Assembly: GCF_016127915.1 (NCBI RefSeq) | Contig: NZ_CP066059.1 | Coordinates: 1,508,001 to 1,572,000 of the forward strand | Length of the DNA: 64,000 nucleotides | DNA from: Streptococcus oralis | GTDB lineage: Bacteria > Bacillota > Bacilli > Lactobacillales > Streptococcaceae | Reading direction: 5' to 3' | Shown: one piece after another, positions 1 through 13,114 of the stretch | How the letters are laid out: every line of letters begins with the position of its first letter | Position numbering within the stretch: position 1 is the first letter of the stretch | Position numbers and translations under genes: made by a program | Notes under the pieces: generated by a model | Told to the model about the DNA's origin: nothing | Database searches by the model: none | Seen by the model: the letters and a program-made list of their open reading frames with translations, nothing else

Positions 1-2301
1 TGGGAATGGAAAGACGAATATGCCACTACTATCAAGGAACAATGGGGCAAGATGGGACTCTCTGTAGACTACTCTCGCGAACGGTTCACTCTTGACGAAG
101 GCTTGTCAAAAGCCGTCCGCAAGGTTTTTGTCGAACTTTACAAGAAAGGCTGGATCTACCGTGGTGAGTTTATCATCAACTGGGACCCAGCAGCTCGCAC
201 AGCCCTTTCTGATATCGAGGTGATCCACAAGGATGTCGAAGGTGCCTTCTACCACATGAACTACATGCTGGAAGATGGTTCACGCGCCCTTGAAGTTGCG
301 ACAACTCGTCCTGAGACTATGTTTGGGGACGTTGCTGTTGCGGTCAATCCAGAAGACCCACGCTACAAGGACTTGATCGGTAAAAATGTCATCCTTCCAA
401 TCGCTAATAAATTGATTCCAATCGTTGGAGACGAACATGCCGATCCCGAGTTTGGAACTGGTGTCGTGAAAATCACGCCTGCCCACGATCCAAACGACTT
501 CTTGGTTGGACAACGCCACAACTTGCCGCAAGTCAACGTCATGAACGATGACGGAACCATGAACGAGCTTGCCTTCGAGTTTGCAGGCATGGACCGTTTT
601 GAAGCTCGTAAGGCAGTCGTTGCTAAGCTAGAAGAAATCGGTGCCCTTGTTAAAATCGAAAAACGTGTCCACAGCGTTGGTCACTCAGAACGTACTGGTG
701 TAGTGGTTGAACCACGCTTGTCTACTCAGTGGTTCGTCAAGATGGACCAATTGGCGAAAAATGCTATTGCCAACCAAGACACAGAGGACAAGGTTGAATT
801 CTACCCACCTCGTTTCAACGATACTTTCCTCCAATGGATGGAAAATGTACACGACTGGGTGATCTCTCGTCAGCTTTGGTGGGGTCACCAAATCCCAGCT
901 TGGTACAATGCTGAGGGTGAAATCTATGTGGGCGAAGAAGCACCGGAAGGTGACGGATGGACTCAAGACGATGATGTACTTGATACGTGGTTCAGTTCTG
1001 CCCTTTGGCCATTCTCAACCATGGGTTGGCCGGATATAGACTCAGCAGACTTCAAGCGTTATTATCCAACATCAACCTTGGTGACTGGTTATGATATTAT
1101 CCCATTCTGGGTATCTCGGATGATTTTCCAAGGTTTGGAATTTACTGGCAAGTCGCCATTCAAAAATGCCTTGATTCACGGTCTCATTCGTGACGAGCAA
1201 GGCCGCAAGATGTCCAAGTCTCTTGGTAACGGGATTGATCCAATGGATGTTATTGATAAATACGGAACAGATAGCCTGCGTTGGTTCCTTTCAAACGGTT
1301 CTGCCCCAGGGCAAGATGTCCGCTTCTCTTACGAAAAAATGGATGCTTCTTGGAACTTCATTAACAAGATCTGGAACATTTCTCGCTACATCCTCATGAA
1401 CAATGAAGGCTTGACCCTTGAGCAAGCAACGGCCAATGTGGAAAAAGTTGTTAACAAGGAAGCTGGTAACGTCACTGACCGCTGGATTCTCCACAACCTC
1501 AATGAAACCATCGGAAAAGTCACTGAAAACTTTGACAAGTTTGAATTTGGTGTCGCTGGACACATCCTCTACAACTTCATCTGGGATGAGTTTGCGGACT
1601 GGTACGTTGAGTTGACCAAGGAAGTCCTTTATAGTGATAACGAAGAAGAGAAAGTTATTACACGTTCTGTTCTCCTTTACACTTTGGACAAGATCCTTCG
1701 TCTCCTTCACCCAATCATGCCATTCGTGACAGAGGAAATCTTTGGACAAATTTCAGAAGGCTCTATCGTTACAGCAGAATACCCAACTGTTAATCCAGCC
1801 TTTGAAGACCTTGCGGCTCACACTGGTGTGGAAAGCCTCAAAGACTTGATCCGCGCCGTTCGTAATGCGCGTGCGGAAGTGAACGTAGCACCAAGCAAGC
1901 CAATCACAATCCTTGTTAAGACAAGCGATAGCGACTTGGAAGCCTTCTTTAACAGTAATGTCAACTACATCAAACGCTTCACAAATCCAGAACACTTGGA
2001 AATTGCATCAACCATCCCTGCACCAGAACTGGCTATGTCAAGCGTCATCACAGGAGCAGAAATCTACTTGCCACTGGCAGACCTCCTCAATGTCGAAGAA
2101 GAACTCGCTCGTCTCGACAAGGAACTGGCTAAATGGCAAAAAGAACTGGACATGGTCGGCAAGAAGCTCTCTAACGAACGCTTCGTAGCCAATGCCAAAC
2201 CAGAAGTCGTCCAAAAAGAACACGACAAACAAGCCGACTACCAAGCTAAGTACGACGCGACCGTAGCACGTATTGATGAGATGAAGAAGTTGGTGAAATA
2301 A
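1..2301 (+). CDS. valS: Valine--tRNA ligase, 5'-truncated by window edge
   Basis: Class I aminoacyl-tRNA synthetase that charges tRNA-Val with valine in the cytoplasm. The reading frame is open from base 1 ([11 protein letters not shown]...), so the gene begins before the window and the ATG at 52 is internal. Visible landmarks are the editing-domain motif [10 protein letters not shown], the tRNA/ATP signature KMSKS (in [10 protein letters not shown]) and a C-terminal coiled coil rich in Leu, Glu and Lys ([18 protein letters not shown]), all typical of ValRS. The N-terminal HIGH motif lies outside. It ends at TAA 2299-2301, followed at once by a strong terminator. Family identity is certain. 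Confidence 0.98.
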
Positions 2302-2307
2302 ACATAG

Positions 2308-2334
2308 AAACACGGTGGTAAGCCGTGTTTTTTT
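2308..2334 (+). terminator. Rho-independent terminator after valS
   Basis: Perfect 8-bp stem AAACACGG / CCGTGTTT (2308-2315 and 2323-2330) followed by a T run. Confidence 0.93.
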
Positions 2335-2392
2335 GGTATAATATCTATAATTACAGTTGACATGCTGTTTCAAAAATGAAAAGGATTATCTT

Positions 2393-5254
2393 ATGTTTTT
2401 TTATTTAATTCTATTACTATTCATTTCCATATTATGTTCATCTATAATATATTTTATTCCTTACCACATAATAAAATATTTTCAAAAAAGGAAGGCTATT
2501 GTAATAAATAATATTAACAAACTTTTAAATGGCGGAATTGGACAGTTTCCTAGAACAAATTTTGAAAAAATATTATTGAATTATAATGGATTTTCTAATA
2601 AGTTAAATGATATATATAATTTATATTTTAAGAAAAATCTGCATCACATAATCAAACTGAGCGTTATTTTTTATTATGTTTCATCTGTTTTGATTCAGAA
2701 AATATTTCATGTAAAATTTTTAAATTTATCCTTACTATCATTTCTTGACATTTCTTCTTTTGTTGTTGGTGTTTTGGGAATGTATGGCATTTATATTGGT
2801 TTTTTACAGTATACTACAGAGAATAATGAACGAGGGAAGTATCTTGGAAAAAATAAAACAAGCTATGTGTTGAAAGATTTTTTCTGGTATCGTTTTAGTC
2901 AAAGTAAAGCGTTTATATTTTCATTGCTAGTTCTTACAATAGTTCCAAATATTATAAAGTTATCACTTCTAACTAATGAAGTGAATCTATATCTAGTTTA
3001 TCTATGGCAAAGTTCACTACTTTTGTTATTAATTGCTTTTGTATTTCTTCTGAAAATGAGTTTATTTTTGATTAGTATTATATCGACAATAAATTCTGGA
3101 GTAGACTATAATTTACAAAGTATAATAAGAGAAAGAATACAAGAGGAATATACTCAAAAATTTTGGATAGAATTTCAAAAAGACTTATATATCAAAAAAA
3201 TTGATAAAATAGATAGAGAATATACTTTAATTGAATGTTTAATTTATAAATTAAGTTTTTTTAGAAATCATCAATTTATGAGGAAACAATTGCTTTATGA
3301 TAATTTAGAACCTAGATTCCTATATAATTGGCTAAAGTATGATACAAGGAATTTATCAGAATTTGAAAAGAAAGAATTTATAGAGTTAGTATTTATAGGA
3401 ATACAAAAAGATGTTTATCAAAAAATAGGTGATAAAAACAAGAAGATAATAAAAAATATTGAGGAATTTCATAGATTTTATAGATTGTTTGTGGAACTGA
3501 AATGGAGATTGTTTGTCTCAGATGATAAAAGGTATAGAATTACTAGAAAGAAGCCATCTAATTTGGATATAATTCTTCCTTTTAAATCATGGTATATTTT
3601 ATTGAATCATGATATCGAAATATTTAATGAATTGTTCAAAAACTTTGACAACGAACAGATATATAATTACTATGTAAAACCAATTAAACAACAGCTTTTA
3701 GGATCTACTTTTAGAAGAAAAAATTCTTTGAAGTTTTCAGATAAAACTGTAGAGAATTCTCTTTGGAAAATGATTTTTAGACATCCTCAGCTTGATATGC
3801 AAAGAGTATATGATGGGTTAATTATATCGACCAAAAAAATAATAGATAATCATAATCTGTATAAAATATCTGTTAAGAAAAATGGAAATTCTAGGGTATT
3901 AAAATTATCAAATTTCCAATATGTCAGATTGAAAGAAAATCGAATTAAGGATAATATAAAAAGTTCCAAAAGATTCAGTAATTTTAAGTTTTATGAGGAA
4001 GAATTTGAATATTTTAAATGGTATCAGTTCTGGAAGCAAAAGAATTTATTTCAAAATAATGTTAATTATAATACAAACATTTTTAGGGGTTCAGAACGAA
4101 CGTTTAATGAGTATTCAAAAGTGTTATTTGAGTCTTTAGAGTATTCTTATGAGCAGTTTAATCAATACCAAAAAAACTGTATATTAAGTATGAATAATGA
4201 ATACAGTCTTGCTTTTATGTTATATCAATTGTTATATACCGATTATACAGAATGGGACGATAACATTGAATTTTATGATGCTGAGATTAAAAAATTAATG
4301 AATTGCGATGAAGAACAACAAAATTATCTTTTTTATCAAGCTAAAGATATAATCTTAAGAACAAATATTAGCGATCGTATTACAGATGAAATTTTAGATA
4401 AATTATGGACAAAACGAAATGAAAAAATAACAGGTTTTTATTGGTTTAATCAGTTTGGTAGAAGGCATCAAATGTCAGAACTTAAAATTGTATATGTTCA
4501 ATGGTTATTGTCAGGTAAAAAATTTCCATTCTCAAGCAGATTTAACTTTATATATGATTCATTCAGCTTTGGTAAAGTGGTAACAAGAGCGAAGAACAGT
4601 GAAAAATGTATAAAAGTCTCTGTTAATAAATTACATTGGAAACGTGTTAGCAATAAAAAGAAAATGGATAACTTTTGTAGAGAATATTTGCTACTTACTG
4701 ATAAGTTAGATTCAATTTTCACAAATGATTTTTATTCGGACAAGCAAAATGATATACAATTATCAGTTGAATATCTTTTGAATACGAATAAAGTTGGCCT
4801 ATCAAATGTAATAGCAAACCTATCAGTATCAAGTTTATTACGCCTTGAGCAGATATTAATATTTAGGGTCCAACATAATAATGGATATTTTAACTATACT
4901 AGTAGAACAATTTTTGATTCCATGACTTCTAACAGTCCATTTTATTGGTCTGGTGGGGAAGGAGTATTAGGATTTTATATCCTCAAAACTATTGATAGTT
5001 TTTATCAAGATTTATATTTGGATACACAATTTATAGAGGGGTTTAAATGGAAAATGATTTCTACTTTAAATTCTCAAAATATGATGATTGATGAGTATGT
5101 TGAAGTAATCTCACAAAAAGTTTCAATCGTAGACAGTGTTTCTAAGTTTCAAAAAGAAGAAATTATTCGTAAATTAAATGACTTGTTATACAATACTGAA
5201 ACAAAGAGTAATCAGAGTAAGTTAGCTCATAAGAAAATATACAGATATAGGTAG
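2393..5254 (+). CDS. Large AT-rich orphan membrane protein of unknown function
   Basis: I do not recognise this 953-residue protein. Residues about 3-24, 90-106, 112-143, 171-193 and 200-232 are strongly hydrophobic, giving about five membrane segments. The remaining ~720 residues are hydrophilic, rich in Lys, Asn, Tyr and Phe, and probably cytoplasmic. I see no Walker, nuclease, protease or kinase motif. The ATG at 2393 is preferred over the in-frame TTG at 2357 because AAAAGGA lies 7 nt upstream of it and residues after it begin a clean membrane segment. The TATAAT-like box at 2338-2343 could drive the gene. Codon use is extremely AT-rich beside its housekeeping neighbours valS and rpoE, which suggests horizontal acquisition. 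It is a single-gene insert. A role in phage defence or surface biology is possible but nothing in the sequence proves it. Confidence 0.85.
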   Translation: MFFYLILLLFISILCSSIIYFIPYHIIKYFQKRKAIVINNINKLLNGGIGQFPRTNFEKILLNYNGFSNKLNDIYNLYFKKNLHHIIKLSVIFYYVSSVLIQKIFHVKFLNLSLLSFLDISSFVVGVLGMYGIYIGFLQYTTENNERGKYLGKNKTSYVLKDFFWYRFSQSKAFIFSLLVLTIVPNIIKLSLLTNEVNLYLVYLWQSSLLLLLIAFVFLLKMSLFLISIISTINSGVDYNLQSIIRERIQEEYTQKFWIEFQKDLYIKKIDKIDREYTLIECLIYKLSFFRNHQFMRKQLLYDNLEPRFLYNWLKYDTRNLSEFEKKEFIELVFIGIQKDVYQKIGDKNKKIIKNIEEFHRFYRLFVELKWRLFVSDDKRYRITRKKPSNLDIILPFKSWYILLNHDIEIFNELFKNFDNEQIYNYYVKPIKQQLLGSTFRRKNSLKFSDKTVENSLWKMIFRHPQLDMQRVYDGLIISTKKIIDNHNLYKISVKKNGNSRVLKLSNFQYVRLKENRIKDNIKSSKRFSNFKFYEEEFEYFKWYQFWKQKNLFQNNVNYNTNIFRGSERTFNEYSKVLFESLEYSYEQFNQYQKNCILSMNNEYSLAFMLYQLLYTDYTEWDDNIEFYDAEIKKLMNCDEEQQNYLFYQAKDIILRTNISDRITDEILDKLWTKRNEKITGFYWFNQFGRRHQMSELKIVYVQWLLSGKKFPFSSRFNFIYDSFSFGKVVTRAKNSEKCIKVSVNKLHWKRVSNKKKMDNFCREYLLLTDKLDSIFTNDFYSDKQNDIQLSVEYLLNTNKVGLSNVIANLSVSSLLRLEQILIFRVQHNNGYFNYTSRTIFDSMTSNSPFYWSGGEGVLGFYILKTIDSFYQDLYLDTQFIEGFKWKMISTLNSQNMMIDEYVEVISQKVSIVDSVSKFQKEEIIRKLNDLLYNTETKSNQSKLAHKKIYRYR

Positions 5255-5558
5255 CGGTGCTAAATACCTCATTTTAATTTATATAACAGACAGATAAATT
5301 TTCTTCTCTGGAAAAAGTAAAATCTAAATCAACAATAGTCATGTAAAGTAATAGTTTAATATTTGATTGGGTTATATCTTTTTGAATGAAAATTATAAGC
5401 AAAAGATTTATTCGTCTTATACTGGAAAAATCAAGATTTTAGAAATCATCTTATCACATAAAAAACTCAGTCAATTTGTTCTTACAACTCCACCAATCGA
5501 CTCCATCGGCTGGGTAGCAAAGAAATAAAAAGTCCTGTCACTTTCTCCCATTTAACCT
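5255..5558. other. AT-rich intergenic stretch with no gene seen
   Basis: About 300 bases between the orphan membrane gene and the rpoE promoter. It holds no convincing open frame, RNA gene or repeat copy. A weak 5-bp hairpin (AGGTA / TACCT, 5250-5270) right after the orphan stop codon could be a poor terminator. The region is AT-rich like the orphan gene and may be the tail of the same inserted segment. Confidence 0.5.
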
Positions 5559-5587
5559 TTGACTATTCCGCAAAATTATCGTACAAT
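5559..5587 (+). promoter_or_regulatory. rpoE promoter
   Basis: TTGACT (5559-5564) and TACAAT (5582-5587) separated by 17 bp, about 70 nt upstream of the rpoE start. Confidence 0.8.
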
Positions 5588-5659
5588 AAAGGGTACATGA
5601 TAAAATGAGGTCAGAGTCTGTTTGCTCTGGCGATAGTAGTATAAATGAGGAGAAACGCT

Positions 5660-6250
5660 TTGGAATTAGAAGTATTTGCTGGGCAAGAAAAAAGTGAACT
5701 ATCTATGATTGAGGTAGCGCGTGCTATCTTGGAACTTCGTGGTCGCGATCATGAGATGCATTTTAGTGATCTTGTAAACGAAATTCAAAACTACCTTGGA
5801 ACATCAAACAGCGATATCCGCGAAGCTTTGCCTTTGTTCTACACAGAGTTGAACTTTGACGGTAGCTTCATCTCTCTTGGAGACAACAAATGGGGGCTTC
5901 GTTCATGGTATGGTGTGGACGAAATCGACGAAGAAATCATCGCTCTTGAAGAAAGTGACGACGATGAAGTAGCACCAAAAGCTAAGAAAAAACGCGTCAA
6001 TGCCTTTATGGATGGCGACTCAGATGCCATTGACTACAACGCAGATGATCCAGAAGACGAAGATGCATACGAAGCAGATCCAGCTCTTTCATATGATGAT
6101 GAAAATCCAGATGATGAGAAAAATGAAGTGGAAGCTTACGATGCAGAAATCAACGAAATCGCTCCTGATGACTTGGGTGAAGACGTGGATCTTAACGAAG
6201 AAGACGATGAGTTTTCTGACGATGATACTGAAACGAGTGAAGAAGAGTAA
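5660..6250 (+). CDS. rpoE: DNA-directed RNA polymerase delta subunit
   Basis: Delta subunit of Gram-positive RNA polymerase. It speeds core recycling and makes initiation sensitive to the first nucleotide. The 196-residue protein has the family layout: a folded N-terminal HARE-HTH domain ([19 protein letters not shown]...; roughly residues 1-90) and a long disordered tail that is almost all Asp and Glu. The TTG start at 5660 is chosen because AGGAG at 5648-5652 sits 7 nt before it; the upstream ATG at 5645 overlaps that ribosome-binding site. It is transcribed from its own promoter and ends in its own terminator just ahead of pyrG, the usual Gram-positive neighbour. Confidence 0.96.
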
Positions 6251-6264
6251 AAGACTTCACAGAG

Positions 6265-6287
6265 GAGATCGCCTGATCTCTTTTTTT
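6265..6287 (+). terminator. Terminator after rpoE
   Basis: GAGATC / GATCTC stem with GCCT loop and seven T residues. Confidence 0.9.
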
Positions 6288-6375
6288 GTTGCTAGAGCAG
6301 GTCATCCGTTTGGATGTGGATCTTTAGTTGGTTTTCTGAAAACAATCTCCTTTTTTCATCTTTTACCGATTCGGG

Positions 6376-6461
6376 TTGACAAATGTTCTGCTTTGAGGTA
6401 TCATATTGTTCGGGCACCTCTTTTAGAGGTCGGGGCTCCCTAGTTACTAGGGAGCTATTTT
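6376..6461 (+). promoter_or_regulatory. pyrG promoter and CTP-sensing attenuator leader
   Basis: TTGACA (6376-6381) and TATCAT (6399-6404) with a 17-bp spacer predict initiation at the GGGC of 6412-6415. The leader then holds a small hairpin (ACCTC / GAGGT) and a strong terminator, GCTCCCTAG / CTAGGGAGC (6435-6455) plus T-rich tail. In Bacillus subtilis pyrG, low CTP causes reiterative G addition at a pppGGGC start, and the poly-G end pairs with a CU-rich GCTCCC arm to block termination. Both required parts, a GGGC start and a GCTCCCT arm, are present here. Confidence 0.88.
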
Positions 6462-6554
6462 TGTTTTTTCAGGAAGTTTTCTTGAAAAGTCGTTATTCAT
6501 AAGGGTCTTGTTTTCGATCTCCCCTCGTAGTTAACAAGGCCTTGAGCATTTTAG

Positions 6555-8174
<1,620 letters not shown>

Positions 8175-8183
8175 CACAATCAG

Positions 8184-8213
8184 AACCTTTGAGAAGAATC
8201 TCAGAGGTTTTTT
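8184..8213 (+). terminator. Terminator after pyrG
   Basis: AACCTTTGAGA / TCTCAGAGGTT stem (one wobble) followed by T residues. Confidence 0.9.
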
Positions 8214-8270
8214 AATTCATTCAGGAAAGTCTTGCTAACTCAGGCGCTTGGCAATAAGAATCAGAAGTCT

Positions 8271-8299
8271 TCTTTCCTCACCGAGGGAAGAGGTTTTTT
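8271..8299 (+). terminator. Second, orphan terminator downstream of pyrG
   Basis: TCTTTCCTC / GAGGGAAGA stem (8271-8279, 8283-8291) with six Ts. No gene lies between it and the pyrG terminator, so it is either a back-up or the remnant of a lost gene. Confidence 0.8.
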
Positions 8300-8324
8300 A
8301 CTTGCTTTTCTGCTACTTCCTCAT

Positions 8325-8353
8325 TTGTCCTAGAGCCCTTTTTGTGTTACAAT
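8325..8353 (+). promoter_or_regulatory. Promoter predicting a leaderless transcript
   Basis: TTGTCC (8325-8330), 17-bp spacer, and extended -10 TGTTACAAT ending at 8353. Normal start-site spacing puts +1 at 8360-8361, which is the ATG of the next gene. No ribosome-binding site is present. Confidence 0.75.
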
Positions 8354-8360
8354 GAATGGT

Positions 8361-8651
8361 ATGAAAGCTAAGAAATTATGGATGACTGGCTTGACTGTGG
8401 CTGGTCTAAGTGCCCTTGCTTTAGGGGCTAAAAAAGCAGCAGATAACCACAAACTCATGAAGACTCAAGAAGAGTTGACCGCTATCGTGCGCGAACTTTT
8501 CTCAGATATGGGTGAGATTGCGACTATTTATGTTCAAGTCTACGAAAGTAGCCTAGAGCGACTCGTCGGAGGAGTCATTTTCGAGGATGGCCGTCACTAT
8601 ACCTTTGTCTATGAAAATGAAGACCTAGTCTATGAGGAGGAAGTCTTATGA
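8361..8651 (+). CDS. DUF4651-family small protein
   Basis: A 96-residue protein of unknown function, recognised as the streptococcal DUF4651 family. An N-terminal hydrophobic stretch (about residues 6-23, WMTGLTVAGLSALALGA) looks like a membrane anchor or uncleaved signal; the rest is an alpha/beta domain with VGGVIFEDGRHYTFVYENEDL. The ATG at 8361 is chosen over 8352 because 8352 lies inside the -10 box. Its stop overlaps the next gene by 4 nt (ATGA), so it is translationally coupled to the thioredoxin-like gene. A redox or surface role shared with that neighbour is only an inference. Confidence 0.85.
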   Translation: MKAKKLWMTGLTVAGLSALALGAKKAADNHKLMKTQEELTAIVRELFSDMGEIATIYVQVYESSLERLVGGVIFEDGRHYTFVYENEDLVYEEEVL

Positions 8652-8965
8652 TTATTCCTAGTAGTATAGAAGAGCTAGCAGGTTTTGTCGAGCAAGATAG
8701 CAAGAAGGTCTTCCTTTTTGTGGCGGACTGGTGTGGCGATTGTCGCTATATCTATCCATCCTTGCCAGAGATTGAGGAGACCAATCCAGAGTTCACCTTT
8801 ATTCGAGTGGACCGTGACCAGTACATGGATCTATCCAAACTCTGGGATGTGTACGGCATTCCTAGCCTTGTTGTGCTAGAAAAGGACAAGGAAATCGGTC
8901 GTTTTGTCAATCGCGACCGTAAAAGCAAGGAACAAATTAACGACTTTTTAGCAGGACTGAAATAG
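8648..8965 (+). CDS. Thioredoxin-family protein
   Basis: A 105-residue single-domain thioredoxin fold. The active site is ADWCGDCRYIYP: two cysteines in a C-G-D-C arrangement instead of the C-G-P-C of classic thioredoxin, which should change its redox potential. The cis-proline region is conserved (YGIPSLVV). There is no signal peptide, so it is cytoplasmic. It overlaps the upstream gene by 4 nt and is followed 6 nt later by ytpR, giving a three-gene unit. Its electron donor and substrate cannot be told from sequence. Confidence 0.9.
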   Translation: MIIPSSIEELAGFVEQDSKKVFLFVADWCGDCRYIYPSLPEIEETNPEFTFIRVDRDQYMDLSKLWDVYGIPSLVVLEKDKEIGRFVNRDRKSKEQINDFLAGLK

Positions 8966-8971
8966 GAGAAA

Positions 8972-9607
8972 ATGGAAACAATGATTTTTACATATAACAA
9001 AGAGCATGTTGGCGATGTCCTTATGATCATCGTGAAAAACAGCGGAGATGCCAAACTGGACGTGGAGCGTAAAGGCAAAGTAGCCCGTGTTTTCCTCAAA
9101 GAAAATGGAGAAACAGTAGCTTGGAATATTTTCGAAATTTCAAGTTTGTTTGAAATTGCAGAGCGTGGTCAAGTCTTTTTGACAGATGAACAAGTAGAAC
9201 GTTTGAACCAAGAATTGCGAGCGGAAGGCTTTGCAGAAGAGATTGTCAATGACAAAGAACCTAAGTTTGTTGTCGGTGAGATTATCGAGATGGTAGCTCA
9301 TCCAGATAGTGACCACCTCAATATCTGCCAAGTAGCAGTATCTAGTGACAAGACGGTACAAATCGTTGCAGGGGCTCCCAATGCGCGTGTCGGTTTGAAA
9401 ACCATTGTAGCTCTTCAGGGAGCTATGATGCCAAAAGGCAATCTCATTTTCCCAGGCGAGCTTCGTGGTGAAAAGAGTTTTGGTATGATGTGCAGCCCTC
9501 GTGAACTTGCCTTGCCAAATGCTCCGCAAAAACGTGGGGTCATTGAATTGTCAGAAGACCAAGTTGTTGGAACTCCCTTTGACCCAGCTAAACATTGGAC
9601 TGCCTAG
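8972..9607 (+). CDS. ytpR: YtpR-family tRNA-binding domain protein
   Basis: Protein of about 211 residues with a C-terminal tRNA-binding OB fold of the type found in the PheRS beta subunit and CsaA (VGEIIEMVAHPDSDHLNICQV, then VAGAPNARVGLKTIVAL and GEKSFGMMCSPRELAL). YtpR proteins are thought to bind tRNA or act near it; their exact role is unsettled. AGGAG lies only 3 nt before the ATG at 8972 but 12 nt before the ATG at 8981, so the true start could be either (211 or 208 residues). It closes the unit that begins with the DUF4651 gene. Confidence 0.92.
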   Translation: METMIFTYNKEHVGDVLMIIVKNSGDAKLDVERKGKVARVFLKENGETVAWNIFEISSLFEIAERGQVFLTDEQVERLNQELRAEGFAEEIVNDKEPKFVVGEIIEMVAHPDSDHLNICQVAVSSDKTVQIVAGAPNARVGLKTIVALQGAMMPKGNLIFPGELRGEKSFGMMCSPRELALPNAPQKRGVIELSEDQVVGTPFDPAKHWTA

Positions 9608-9648
9608 GAAATTGTCAGTGTTTGATAGACCAGATAGAGGGGGATAAG

Positions 9649-10410
9649 ATGGCAAAAAATGTAGTGATTACAGGAGCGACTTCAGGAATTGGTGAAGCGA
9701 TTGCACGTGCTTATCTGGAGCAGGGGGAGAATGTCGTTCTAACAGGACGACGGACAGACAGACTAGAGGCCCTCAAGTCAGAGTTTGCAGAAACTTTTCC
9801 AAATCAAACAGTTTGGACTTTTCCACTGGATGTCACAGATATGGCTATGGTCAAGACGGTCTGCTCTGATATTTTGGAAACGATAGGGCAGATTGATATC
9901 TTGGTCAATAATGCTGGACTAGCCCTTGGCTTGGCTCCCTATCAAGACTATGAAGAGTTGGATATGCTGACTATGTTGGATACCAATGTTAAAGGTTTGA
10001 TGGCGGTCACTCGCTGTTTCTTGCCAGCAATGGTAAAAGTCAATCAGGGTCATATCATTAACATGGGGTCGACCGCAGGAATCTACGCCTATGCGGGTGC
10101 AGCTGTTTACTCAGCAACCAAGGCTGCAGTTAAGACTTTTTCAGATGGTCTACGAATTGATACCATTGCAACGAATATCAAGGTGACCACCATTCGGCCA
10201 GGGATTGTCGAAACAGATTTTTCTGCGGTACGTTTCCATGGTGACAAAGAGCGTGCTGCCACCGTCTATCAGGGAATTGAGGCCTTGCAAGCTCAAGATA
10301 TTGCAGATACAGTTGTCTATGTGACCAGTCAGCCTCGCCGTGTGCAGATTACAGATATGACTATTATGGCCAATCAACAGGCGACAGGTTTCATGGTGCA
10401 TAAAAAATAA
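9649..10410 (+). CDS. Short-chain dehydrogenase/reductase (SDR)
   Basis: Classical SDR, 253 residues, NAD(P)-dependent oxidoreductase of the YdfG/serine-dehydrogenase-like type. Visible motifs in order: TGATSGIG cofactor loop near the N-terminus, NNAG, catalytic Ser in MGSTAG, YSATK with catalytic Tyr and Lys, and PGIVETDF. An Arg-rich GRRTDR after strand 2 suggests NADP(H) preference. The ATG at 9649 is preceded by GAGGGGG. The natural substrate is unknown. It is followed by a terminator and probably transcribed with the genes upstream. Confidence 0.93.
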   Translation: MAKNVVITGATSGIGEAIARAYLEQGENVVLTGRRTDRLEALKSEFAETFPNQTVWTFPLDVTDMAMVKTVCSDILETIGQIDILVNNAGLALGLAPYQDYEELDMLTMLDTNVKGLMAVTRCFLPAMVKVNQGHIINMGSTAGIYAYAGAAVYSATKAAVKTFSDGLRIDTIATNIKVTTIRPGIVETDFSAVRFHGDKERAATVYQGIEALQAQDIADTVVYVTSQPRRVQITDMTIMANQQATGFMVHKK

Positions 10411-10422
10411 AAAATTTTCTCG

Positions 10423-10450
10423 AAAAGTTACAAATTTTTGTAACTTTTTT
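10423..10450 (+). terminator. Terminator between the SDR gene and ssbB
   Basis: 12-bp stem AAAAGTTACAAA / TTTGTAACTTTT with a TT loop and T tail. It insulates ssbB from read-through. Confidence 0.92.
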
Positions 10451-10458
10451 TGATTCCT

Positions 10459-10466
10459 TACGAATA
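10459..10466 (+). promoter_or_regulatory. ComX (sigma-X) cin-box
   Basis: Exact TACGAATA behind a T-rich tract, 21 nt upstream of the ssbB start. This is the late-competence promoter element recognised by the alternative sigma factor ComX in streptococci. No normal -35 is apparent. Confidence 0.9.
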
Positions 10467-10487
10467 GATAAGTAGGAGGAAGAAAAT

Positions 10488-10883
10488 ATGTATAATAAAG
10501 TTATTCTTATTGGACGTTTAACGTCTACACCAGAATTGCACAAAACCAACAATGACAAGTCAGTAGCGCGCGCAACGATCGCTGTGAACCGTCGTTACAA
10601 AGACCAGAATGGGGAACGCGAAGCTGACTTTGTCAATCTTGTTCTTTGGGGAAAATTGGCTGAAACCTTGGCAAGCTACGCAACTAAAGGTAGTCTTATC
10701 TCTGTGGATGGAGAACTTCGTACCCGTCGCTTTGAGAAAAATGGCCAGATGAACTATGTGACTGAAGTTCTTGTGACAGGATTCCAACTTTTGGAAAGTC
10801 GTGCCCAACGAGCCATGCGTGAAAATAACGCTGGACAGGATTTGGCAGACTTGGTTTTGGAAGAGGAGGAATTGCCATTTTAA
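10488..10883 (+). CDS. ssbB: Competence-induced single-stranded DNA-binding protein
   Basis: OB-fold SSB of 131 residues (MYNKVILIGRLTSTPEL, then VNRRYKDQNGEREADFVNLVLWGK). It is shorter than the essential SsbA (about 156-170 residues) but keeps an acidic tip, DLVLEEEELPF, the partner-docking tail. In pneumococcus, SsbB (CilA) coats and stores incoming transforming DNA. The cin-box at 10459-10466 confirms the competence paralogue rather than replication SSB. An AGGAGGAAG ribosome-binding site precedes the ATG. The last base of its TAA is also the first base of a BOX repeat. Confidence 0.95.
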   Translation: MYNKVILIGRLTSTPELHKTNNDKSVARATIAVNRRYKDQNGEREADFVNLVLWGKLAETLASYATKGSLISVDGELRTRRFEKNGQMNYVTEVLVTGFQLLESRAQRAMRENNAGQDLADLVLEEEELPF

Positions 10884-11034
10884 TACTCTTCGAAAATCTC
10901 TTCTAACCCCGTCAGCTTCCCCTTGCCGTAGGTATAGGTAACTGACTTCGTCAGTCCTATCTACAACCTAAAAACTATATTTTTAGCAGCCTGCGTCTAG
11001 CTTCCTAGTTTGCACTTTGATTTTCATTGAGTAT
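10883..11034 (-). repeat. BOX element (boxA-boxB-boxC)
   Basis: 152-bp element with inverted ends ATACTC..GAAAATC and GATTTTC..GAGTAT. On the minus strand it reads boxA (TATACTCAATGAAAATCAAA...), one boxB carrying the ACTGACGAAGTCAGT hairpin, and boxC, with CTACGGCAAGGGGAAGCTGACG closely matching the sequence used for BOX-PCR typing. Size fits A-B-C with one boxB. It starts at the final A of the ssbB stop codon. Confidence 0.93.
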
Positions 11035-11041
11035 AAACATT

Positions 11042-11070
11042 AAAAAGTCTGAGTTGGTCTCAGGCTTTTT
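11042..11070 (+). terminator. Terminator downstream of ssbB and BOX
   Basis: AAAAAGTCTGAG / CTCAGGCTTTTT stem with TTGGT loop. The symmetric A/T flanks make it potentially bidirectional. Confidence 0.88.
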
Positions 11071-11095
11071 ATCTTGAGAAAGTCAGACTTTTTTC

Positions 11096-11161
11096 TTGAC
11101 TATTTCTGACCAAGTGATACAATAGAATTATGAATTAGCACTCATATACAAAGAGTGCTAA
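11096..11161 (+). promoter_or_regulatory. groESL promoter with CIRCE operator and possible CtsR site
   Basis: TTGACT (11096-11101) and extended -10 TGATACAAT (hexamer 11118-11123). The perfect CIRCE inverted repeat TTAGCACTC-N9-GAGTGCTAA spans 11135-11161, the HrcA repressor site. The -35 also lies in TTGACTATTTCTGACC (11096-11111), which resembles, with several mismatches, the direct heptads bound by CtsR. Confidence 0.93.
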
Positions 11162-11191
11162 TAATATGTATCTCATCATGGAGGAAAACAG

Positions 11192-11476
11192 ATGTTGAAA
11201 CCATTAGGAGACCGTGTGGTCTTGAAAGTCGAAGAAAAAGAACAAACTGTTGGAGGCTTTGTCCTTGCAGGCTCAGCCCAAGAAAAAACAAAAACAGCCC
11301 AAGTTGTAGCTACTGGACAAGGTGTTCGTACCTTGAACGGTGACTTGGTAGCTCCAAGCGTTAAGCCTGGAGACCGTGTCTTAGTTGAAGCACATGCAGG
11401 TCTTGATGTAAAAGATGGCGATGAAAAGTACATCATCGTTGGCGAAGCTAACATCTTGGCAATCATTGAAGAATAG
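11192..11476 (+). CDS. groES: Co-chaperonin GroES
   Basis: 94-residue Hsp10 lid of the GroEL chamber. It starts [21 protein letters not shown], with the mobile loop around [12 protein letters not shown] and the conserved PGDRVLVE. Normal length. A GGAGG ribosome-binding site precedes the ATG. First gene of the HrcA-controlled heat-shock operon; groEL follows after 15 nt. Confidence 0.98.

Positions 11477-13114
<1,638 letters not shown>

Follow-up and report, generated by a model that had tools for sequence, protein, structure and literature searches.

Within the window, the 64,000-nucleotide stretch of Streptococcus oralis DNA analysed here, one intact open reading frame of 953 codons lies between valS and rpoE (Table 1), as the initial annotation had described. 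Its GC content is 0.249 and its GC3 is 0.211, against GC3 values of 0.50 for valS, 0.36 for rpoE, 0.41 for pyrG and 0.35 for groEL. The lower GC claimed relative to the genes on both sides is borne out by 500-bp windows, in which GC ranges from 0.22-0.29 within the frame and from 0.41-0.49 across valS and rpoE. Upstream of the ATG at 2393 the frame stays open back to a TTG at 2357, and we favour the ATG as the start because the closest relative, P0001, is likewise 953 residues long. By eye, no transposase was recognised among the open reading frames of positions 1-12000, in agreement with the initial annotation, and no mobile-element genes flank the gene in the window.

Table 1. Features at and around the valS-rpoE junction (positions are those of the window).
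Feature	Position	Strand	Basis
valS (3' part in window), anchor gene upstream of the insertion	52..2301	+	ORF list; valS present in 197/197 genus genomes
Terminator-like hairpin after valS, with T-run	2308..2336	+	sequence; similar layout in many related junctions
TGGTATAAT, extended -10-like element on the T-run, 5' boundary of the insert	2334..2342	+	similarity to G034 and G190 ends at 2342
953-aa membrane protein gene	2393..5254	+	ORF list, family searches, relatives
Segment without similarity in G034 (L016), swapped N-terminal half	2343..4172	+	G034 94% identical on both sides
Residues 117-235, membrane core	2741..3097	+	best conserved part in two Enterococcus relatives
Residues 236-560, predicted helical, solenoid-like, variable (residues 1-116 likewise)	3098..4072	+	structure model, alignment
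Residues 561-953, C-terminal helical domain common to otherwise different proteins	4073..5251	+	alignment, model
3' boundary zone of the insert, where similarity to strains with other cargo resumes	5420..5552	n/a	junction comparison
rpoE, downstream flank	5645..6250	+	ORF list

The encoded protein has no credible match in Pfam (best E 0.23) or NCBIfam, neither of which offers a transporter or immunity family for it, and none among PDB sequences by profile search (best E 0.05); its best E against PHROGs is 0.023. PADLOC-DB 2.0.0 returned 0 families for it at E <= 5, and 0 families at 1e-3 for three distant relatives. Hydropathy resolves four distinct membrane segments in the first 230 residues (1-19, 107-135, 170-188 and 209-227), and the structure model predicts N-terminal helices at 83-105, 117-143, 172-190 and 195-235. 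A fifth segment, at about 83-105, is below threshold in the window protein and above it in the relative P0051, and coincides with a predicted helix. The count of membrane helices is thus tentatively four to five, and the 'about five' of the initial annotation is a fair description in which four segments stand firm and the fifth is tentative. With five helices, hydropathy and charge would place the C-terminus inside the cell, an assignment that we treat as tentative because the four above-threshold segments on their own would put it on the opposite side.

The full-length AlphaFold model is of moderate quality (pLDDT 65.9, pTM 0.44) and renders the region beyond the membrane segments almost all-helical; the model of the C-terminal domain is good and likewise all-helical (pLDDT 78.9, pTM 0.81). 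Foldseek found nothing at E <= 0.001 in the PDB with either model, nor in BFVD with the C-terminal model, the one compared there; a Foldseek comparison had been suggested in the initial annotation. None of the chains compared comes close to the C-terminal domain, which does not by itself prove a new fold, and structure comparisons of the protein revealed no recognisable enzymatic or known pore fold. The likeness of residues 245-540 to helical solenoids is a general one only. Many helical-repeat chains align weakly to the models, eukaryotic-type repeats (CNOT1, importins) being among the folds considered; we read these weak alignments as probably reflecting a common arrangement and draw no function from them.

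Far from being the orphan it was first taken for, the protein has 128 database relatives, and a search with its C-terminal part gave 154; among the matches listed (the best 120 in each search), every relative with an organism name given by its source is a Streptococcus. Other searches added relatives outside the genus, two in Enterococcus (G358, apparently Enterococcus sp. DIV0660C, and G413, apparently Enterococcus gallinarum NBRC 100675) and one in Siminovitchia fordii. Counting the genome of the window itself, a relative is carried by 9 of 197 genus genomes and by 5 of the 84 with valS at 95% identity or more. An order-level profile search of 395 genomes matched six, namely the own genome, G181, G507, the two Enterococcus genomes, which belong to another family than the own genome, and weakly G310. 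The G310 match (5.8e-9) is full of stops. At class level the own genome alone was matched (1 of 398), an absence that is weak because few candidates were scored per genome, and scans of genome contigs gave 0 loci in a first pass and nine in a second. Searched by tblastn with the window protein, 50,697 phage records and 72,556 plasmid records gave no match, and none of the 32 stretches of viral contigs that fit a peptide pattern is a relative; with no match in the phage, plasmid and viral collections searched, an origin from any of the three was rejected. The distribution, the GC3 of 0.211 against 0.35-0.50 and the lack of a match to any curated family likewise rule out a housekeeping gene, the alternative that the initial annotation had itself raised, and its description of a single-gene accessory cargo agrees with presence in 5 of 84 close genomes, foreign composition and a clean insertion after valS.

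Eight of the nine genus carriers (G000, G020, G022, G034, G087, G147, G181 and G190) have the gene downstream of valS, and the relatives found in S. ovis and in Streptococcus sp. oral taxon 431 likewise follow valS. Outside apparent mobile elements, all ten streptococcal loci examined, a count in which most database relatives are not located, have the gene after valS, nine of them directly and one behind a Gabija pair. That one is G087, in which a GajA/GajB pair and a valS fragment stand between valS and the relative; in G147 two contig ends each hold part of the copy after valS. In S. ovis a 1490-residue cargo follows the gene, and 4 of the 60 junctions described below have this kind of cargo as their AT-rich cargo behind valS. 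Beside the relatives after valS there is no fixed partner gene in the carrier loci examined. Judged from their neighbours, the copies in G051 and G507 and the second copy in G147 look to be part of integrative conjugative elements; about 6 kb separates this G147 copy (L022) from a GajA-like gene (6.4e-93), and about 4 kb the G507 copy (L127) from an LmuA-like gene (1.4e-24). Neighbours of the gene in Enterococcus G358 match the PADLOC models PDC-S73 (1.7e-134), Old (2.4e-56) and type II REase (5.7e-303). The one neighbour scanned at the E. gallinarum locus has no PADLOC match, and by eye the Siminovitchia locus has no evident defence neighbours.

For the junction itself we compared the region following valS in 60 further genomes with a similar valS, none of them among the nine carriers (rows 2 to 66 of the valS search, minus four carriers and G140, in which a contig ends); the sample leaves out another 18 genomes whose valS is at least 95% identical. 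The first reading frame or frames after valS are AT-rich in 52 of the 60 junctions, giving 103 cargo frames in all, by a cut-off of our own choice (GC below 0.355, at least 90 residues) that missed cargo in L080 and L115; L077 and L102 hold runs of N, and one of the 103 frames is such a run. The comparison of presence and absence at valS junctions proposed initially thus finds the gene patchy and the cargo of the junction variable. In a small control resting on one gene, an AT-rich frame came first after groEL in 0 of 20 of these genomes and after valS in 19 of the same 20; the twentieth, L080, has after valS a type IV restriction gene whose GC of 0.362 is above the cut-off.

PADLOC models were matched at E <= 1e-10 in 18 of the 27 junctions with at least one protein scanned (L056, L057, L059, L060, L061, L066, L069, L072, L073, L080, L083, L087, L088, L089, L093, L104, L106 and L115), these being matches of single proteins to models and not calls of whole systems. 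The scan took in 38 of the 103 cargo frames and three proteins of L080 and L115, a non-random choice made for variety of cargo. Among the matches are Hachiman HamA/HamB (L059, L072), DarT/DarG (L069), PD-Lambda-5 (L088), type IV mREase restriction (L060, L080), PDC-M46 (L073), MTase/REase sets (L057, L115) and an NsnA/NsnB-like pair (L056); the match at L066 is partial (1.2e-11), and several are to broad ATPase or methyltransferase models, with L061, L083 and L089 matching broad ATPase models. Adding junctions whose cargo clusters with a scanned PADLOC match brings the number covered to 33 of 60, and Gabija was found in the carrier G087, outside the sample. Nine scanned junctions gave no match or a weak one (L058, L068, L070, L074, L081, L085, L086, L096 and L100), and at L058, L081, L096 and L100 one of several proteins was scanned. 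Going by these model matches, the valS 3' junction is a defence hotspot, with several unrelated putative defence systems in relatives of the strain; given the 9 of 27 junctions without a clear match, it may hold non-defence cargo too. Location, moreover, is association and not function.

The window and G034 (L016) are 94% identical up to position 2342, share no similarity over 2343-4172 and are again 94% identical from 4173 to 6290; the match to G190 (L018) likewise ends at 2342 and begins again at 5538. TGGTATAAT, 3' of the terminator-like hairpin, has its last base at 2342; the approximate 3' border against strains with other cargo is given in Table 1. A consensus terminator scan reported the valS hairpin (2308-2330) on the reverse strand only, and the forward-strand T-run was read by eye. 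The T-run joined to GNTATAAT occurs in 33 of the 52 junctions with AT-rich cargo versus 1 of the 8 without, and that one, L080, although counted as lacking cargo, does have a cargo gene above the GC cut-off. Much of the cargo therefore seems to bring with it a putative promoter element joined to the valS terminator. In L073, L081 and L096 the terminator-like element stands alone, apart from the valS end, and a 16-base string running from the terminator through TATAAT has 8 sites in the genome at no more than one mismatch, 2 of them exact, one being the valS site. A second valS 3' fragment occurs in just 2 of the 74 sequences compared (L015 and L017); site-specific integration at the valS end was set aside, and we claim no integrase mechanism.

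The gene itself is a mosaic. Our analysis used the 61 sufficiently complete proteins of 70 aligned, which over residues 1-560 form eight groups (single linkage, 60% identity); four of these groups include proteins that share one C-terminal group at 80%. Compared with P0053, also from S. oralis, the window protein shows 24% identity as far as residue 560 and 93-94% past 597, and P0029 has the reverse relation to the window protein, at 91% in the N-terminal part, 58% over 597-760 and 76% beyond. Halves of the protein have thus been swapped between strains. What was initially annotated as a soluble region of some 720 residues with no nameable motif has indeed no Pfam, NCBIfam or PADLOC match, but it consists of two parts with different histories, the variable stretch 236-560 and a conserved C-terminal domain at about 570-935. 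Mean pairwise identity among 12 diverse members is 20-23% over residues 1-116, 39% over 117-235, 23-25% over 236-560 and 39-42% in the C-terminal parts; in the two Enterococcus relatives the membrane core (117-235) stands at 37-41%, the C-terminal parts at 25-32% and residues 236-560 at 15-22%. The consensus of the core is YGIYxGFLQ ... YLGxxK ... P ... WQ, invariant positions include G132, Y134, F137, L138, Q139, G152, P185, W205 and Q206, and the motif residues are retained down to 21-26% identity. The idea that the solenoid (236-560) is the sole variable part was dropped, because residues 1-116 vary as much; conservation therefore does not single out the solenoid as a sensor.

Taking sequence, location and distribution together, we think it reasonably probable that the gene encodes a single-gene anti-phage (or anti-mobile-element) protein, one exchangeable cargo at the valS 3' hotspot. 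The defence role first suggested for it is supported by the hotspot location and by the defence-type neighbours of some distant relatives, although in the profile searches no defence model matches the protein. Several carriers hold broken copies, which suits a gene that is costly and dispensable. In the mechanism that we propose, four to five membrane helices would serve as an anchor, with the long C-terminal part inside the cell. An infection cue would be sensed by the variable cytoplasmic helical segment (236-560) and the signal transmitted or gated by the conserved C-terminal domain, whereupon the membrane core would assemble or open in the membrane and the infected cell would be stopped, as in abortive infection. 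From the conservation of the membrane core we would expect an output at the membrane, and variability suggests that recognition resides in the variable stretches, where we would place it in the cytoplasmic one. The transmembrane segments expected of a membrane-acting abortive-infection effector are present.

Membrane-acting abortive-infection effectors, and membrane defence proteins such as KwaA or ZorA, combine a membrane anchor with a cytoplasmic part. The window protein resembles them in this layout and, as proposed here, in mode of action, but it has no detectable sequence relation to them (Pfam, PADLOC) and is encoded by a single large gene, its helical middle part being distinct from the helical C-terminal domain. 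Homologous recombination, with the valS flank on one side and the common 3' half on the other, would exchange cargo and N-terminal halves, most likely after natural transformation; this is in keeping with the borders of the insert and with the biology of these streptococci. More tentatively, and with rather less confidence than we attach to a defence role, the family could represent a new class of modular membrane immune receptor, in which a conserved membrane core and C-terminal domain are joined by a variable helical sensor, and whose N-terminal halves would be shuffled between streptococci at the valS 3' end by natural transformation, trading sensor specificities as well as whole systems.

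Comparable loci have been described elsewhere. In Streptococcus suis a variable defence locus lies between rpiA and trmE (PMC5398294), and the available part of that article presents it, much like the valS junction, as a single chromosomal site where strains swap different defence elements, and puts competence forward as a route. It is a different site, however: valS, valyl and rpoE are absent from the main text, and the elements it lists in the part available (RM, CRISPR, Abi, prophages) do not name the family of the 953-residue protein (PMC5398294). A preprint on YprA helicases, in its available part, shows ValS as one of the genes bordering a hypervariable defence island (PMC12458937), so that valS as a conserved gene near the border of such an island is not new in itself. 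That island, however, is bounded by a cell-wall operon and is shown there with a type I fimbriae operon, integrase remnants and excisionases; since 'Streptococcus' is absent from the text, we take it to concern another organism and another kind of element. The defence islands of S. thermophilus, as far as the available portion of the article describes them, resemble the present case in being streptococcal and in holding Gabija, Kiwa, Abi and RM, but are tied to CRISPR loci and are much larger, the largest averaging 74.5 kb (PMC11514479); valS and valyl are absent from that text, and valS does not occur in PMC12479173. We recognised no description of a streptococcal valS hotspot in the literature searched, in which subscription papers are thinly covered. 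Hachiman HamAB, according to the available part of its description, is a nuclease-helicase (PMC12278908). Hachiman and Gabija occupy the same valS junction in related strains, but both are two-gene systems, and the 953-residue protein has no sequence relation to any PADLOC model.

What the locus offers, then, is a protein family matched by nothing in Pfam, NCBIfam, PADLOC 2023 or, by sequence, the PDB, and probably part of bacterial immunity. The valS 3' end appears to be a compact defence hotspot in a group of streptococci, and mining it could bring other systems to light, since the nine scanned junctions without a clear match hold candidates; the mosaic alleles amount to natural domain swaps by which sensor and effector could be assigned.

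The anchor and large helical scaffold could also belong to a membrane-tethered factor that blocks the entry of phage or plasmid DNA in the manner of superinfection exclusion, a defence without cell death in which the variable parts would set the target. This we consider unlikely. It draws on the same location evidence as the abortive-infection reading, and the copies in apparent mobile elements sit where shutting out competitors would be useful; yet no phage relatives were found in the phage records or viral contigs searched, a protein of 953 residues is, to our knowledge, much larger than known superinfection-exclusion proteins, and the data fit a suicidal version equally.

We give little credence to the view that this is an accessory membrane protein unrelated to phage, concerned with bacteriocin or toxin immunity, surface sensing or transport, and lodged at a permissive site. 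Hotspots do accept varied cargo, 9 of the 27 scanned junctions have no clear defence match, and the protein itself is matched by no defence model. The 18 junctions with defence-model matches speak against it, however, as do the missing fixed partner gene after valS, the defence-type neighbours in one Enterococcus and in two apparent mobile elements, and the failure of any transporter or immunity family to match.

A last reading, in which the gene is left over from a mobile element, is decaying and has no function today, seems very improbable. In its favour, several relatives are damaged: the G034 copy has stops, that of G087 contains an insertion sequence, G181 and G507 keep pieces, and the G020 copy is shorter at 778 residues. 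Against it, the protein is full length in the window and in many database entries, motif residues persist at the identities given above, and the window has no element genes beside the gene.

Four of the 60 further valS junctions carry, as their AT-rich cargo, a 1490-aa protein that in S. ovis adjoins the family gene itself. The PADLOC scan for anti-phage systems returned only a partial PDC-M54A match for this protein (about 1e-11), and we regard it as a candidate undescribed single-gene defence system. In 9 of the 60 genomes the junction holds a shorter protein, roughly 256 aa long (SKHPHYELLNLIGYGLAKFD...), one copy of which is interrupted by N; the only PADLOC match of this protein is a weak one, to TmtA (6e-8). 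The valS site also harbours two other families of AT-rich cargo, neither of which had a PADLOC match; by eye, the N-termini of both are hydrophobic.

In carriers of the family gene, differing AT-rich genes also occupy the gap upstream of valS. One protein from this gap in locus L020 has an Aga_REase-like match (1.4e-23) in PADLOC, and the proteins from L016, L018, L019 and L024, of which one was scanned per locus, had none. Distant relatives of the family lie in what appear to be integrative conjugative elements, and the relative in L127 is present as broken pieces.

Cargo genes, upstream-gap genes and distant family relatives, by fetched locus
Feature	Locus and coordinates	Position
1490-aa AT-rich protein	L066:180-4655; L071; L097; L103; L156:8970-13442	
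About 256-aa protein	L085; L090; L094; L095; L101; L102; L110; L111; L114	
AT-rich cargo family	L068:176-1255; L113	at valS
Another AT-rich cargo family	L074:147-971; L108	at valS
AT-rich genes	L016:14755-16071; L018:4073-5119; L019:3522-6230; L020:5529-7135; L024:4207-5262	upstream of valS
Distant family relatives	L022:8210-10882; L023:8936-11605; L127:7847-10530	
Gabija pair, GajA + GajB	L015:1340-6550 (genome G087)	between valS and a second valS 3'-end fragment

Within the Gabija locus of G087, gajA and gajB are separated by transposase-like ORFs, and the family gene, which adjoins the Gabija region, is interrupted by another transposase-like pair.
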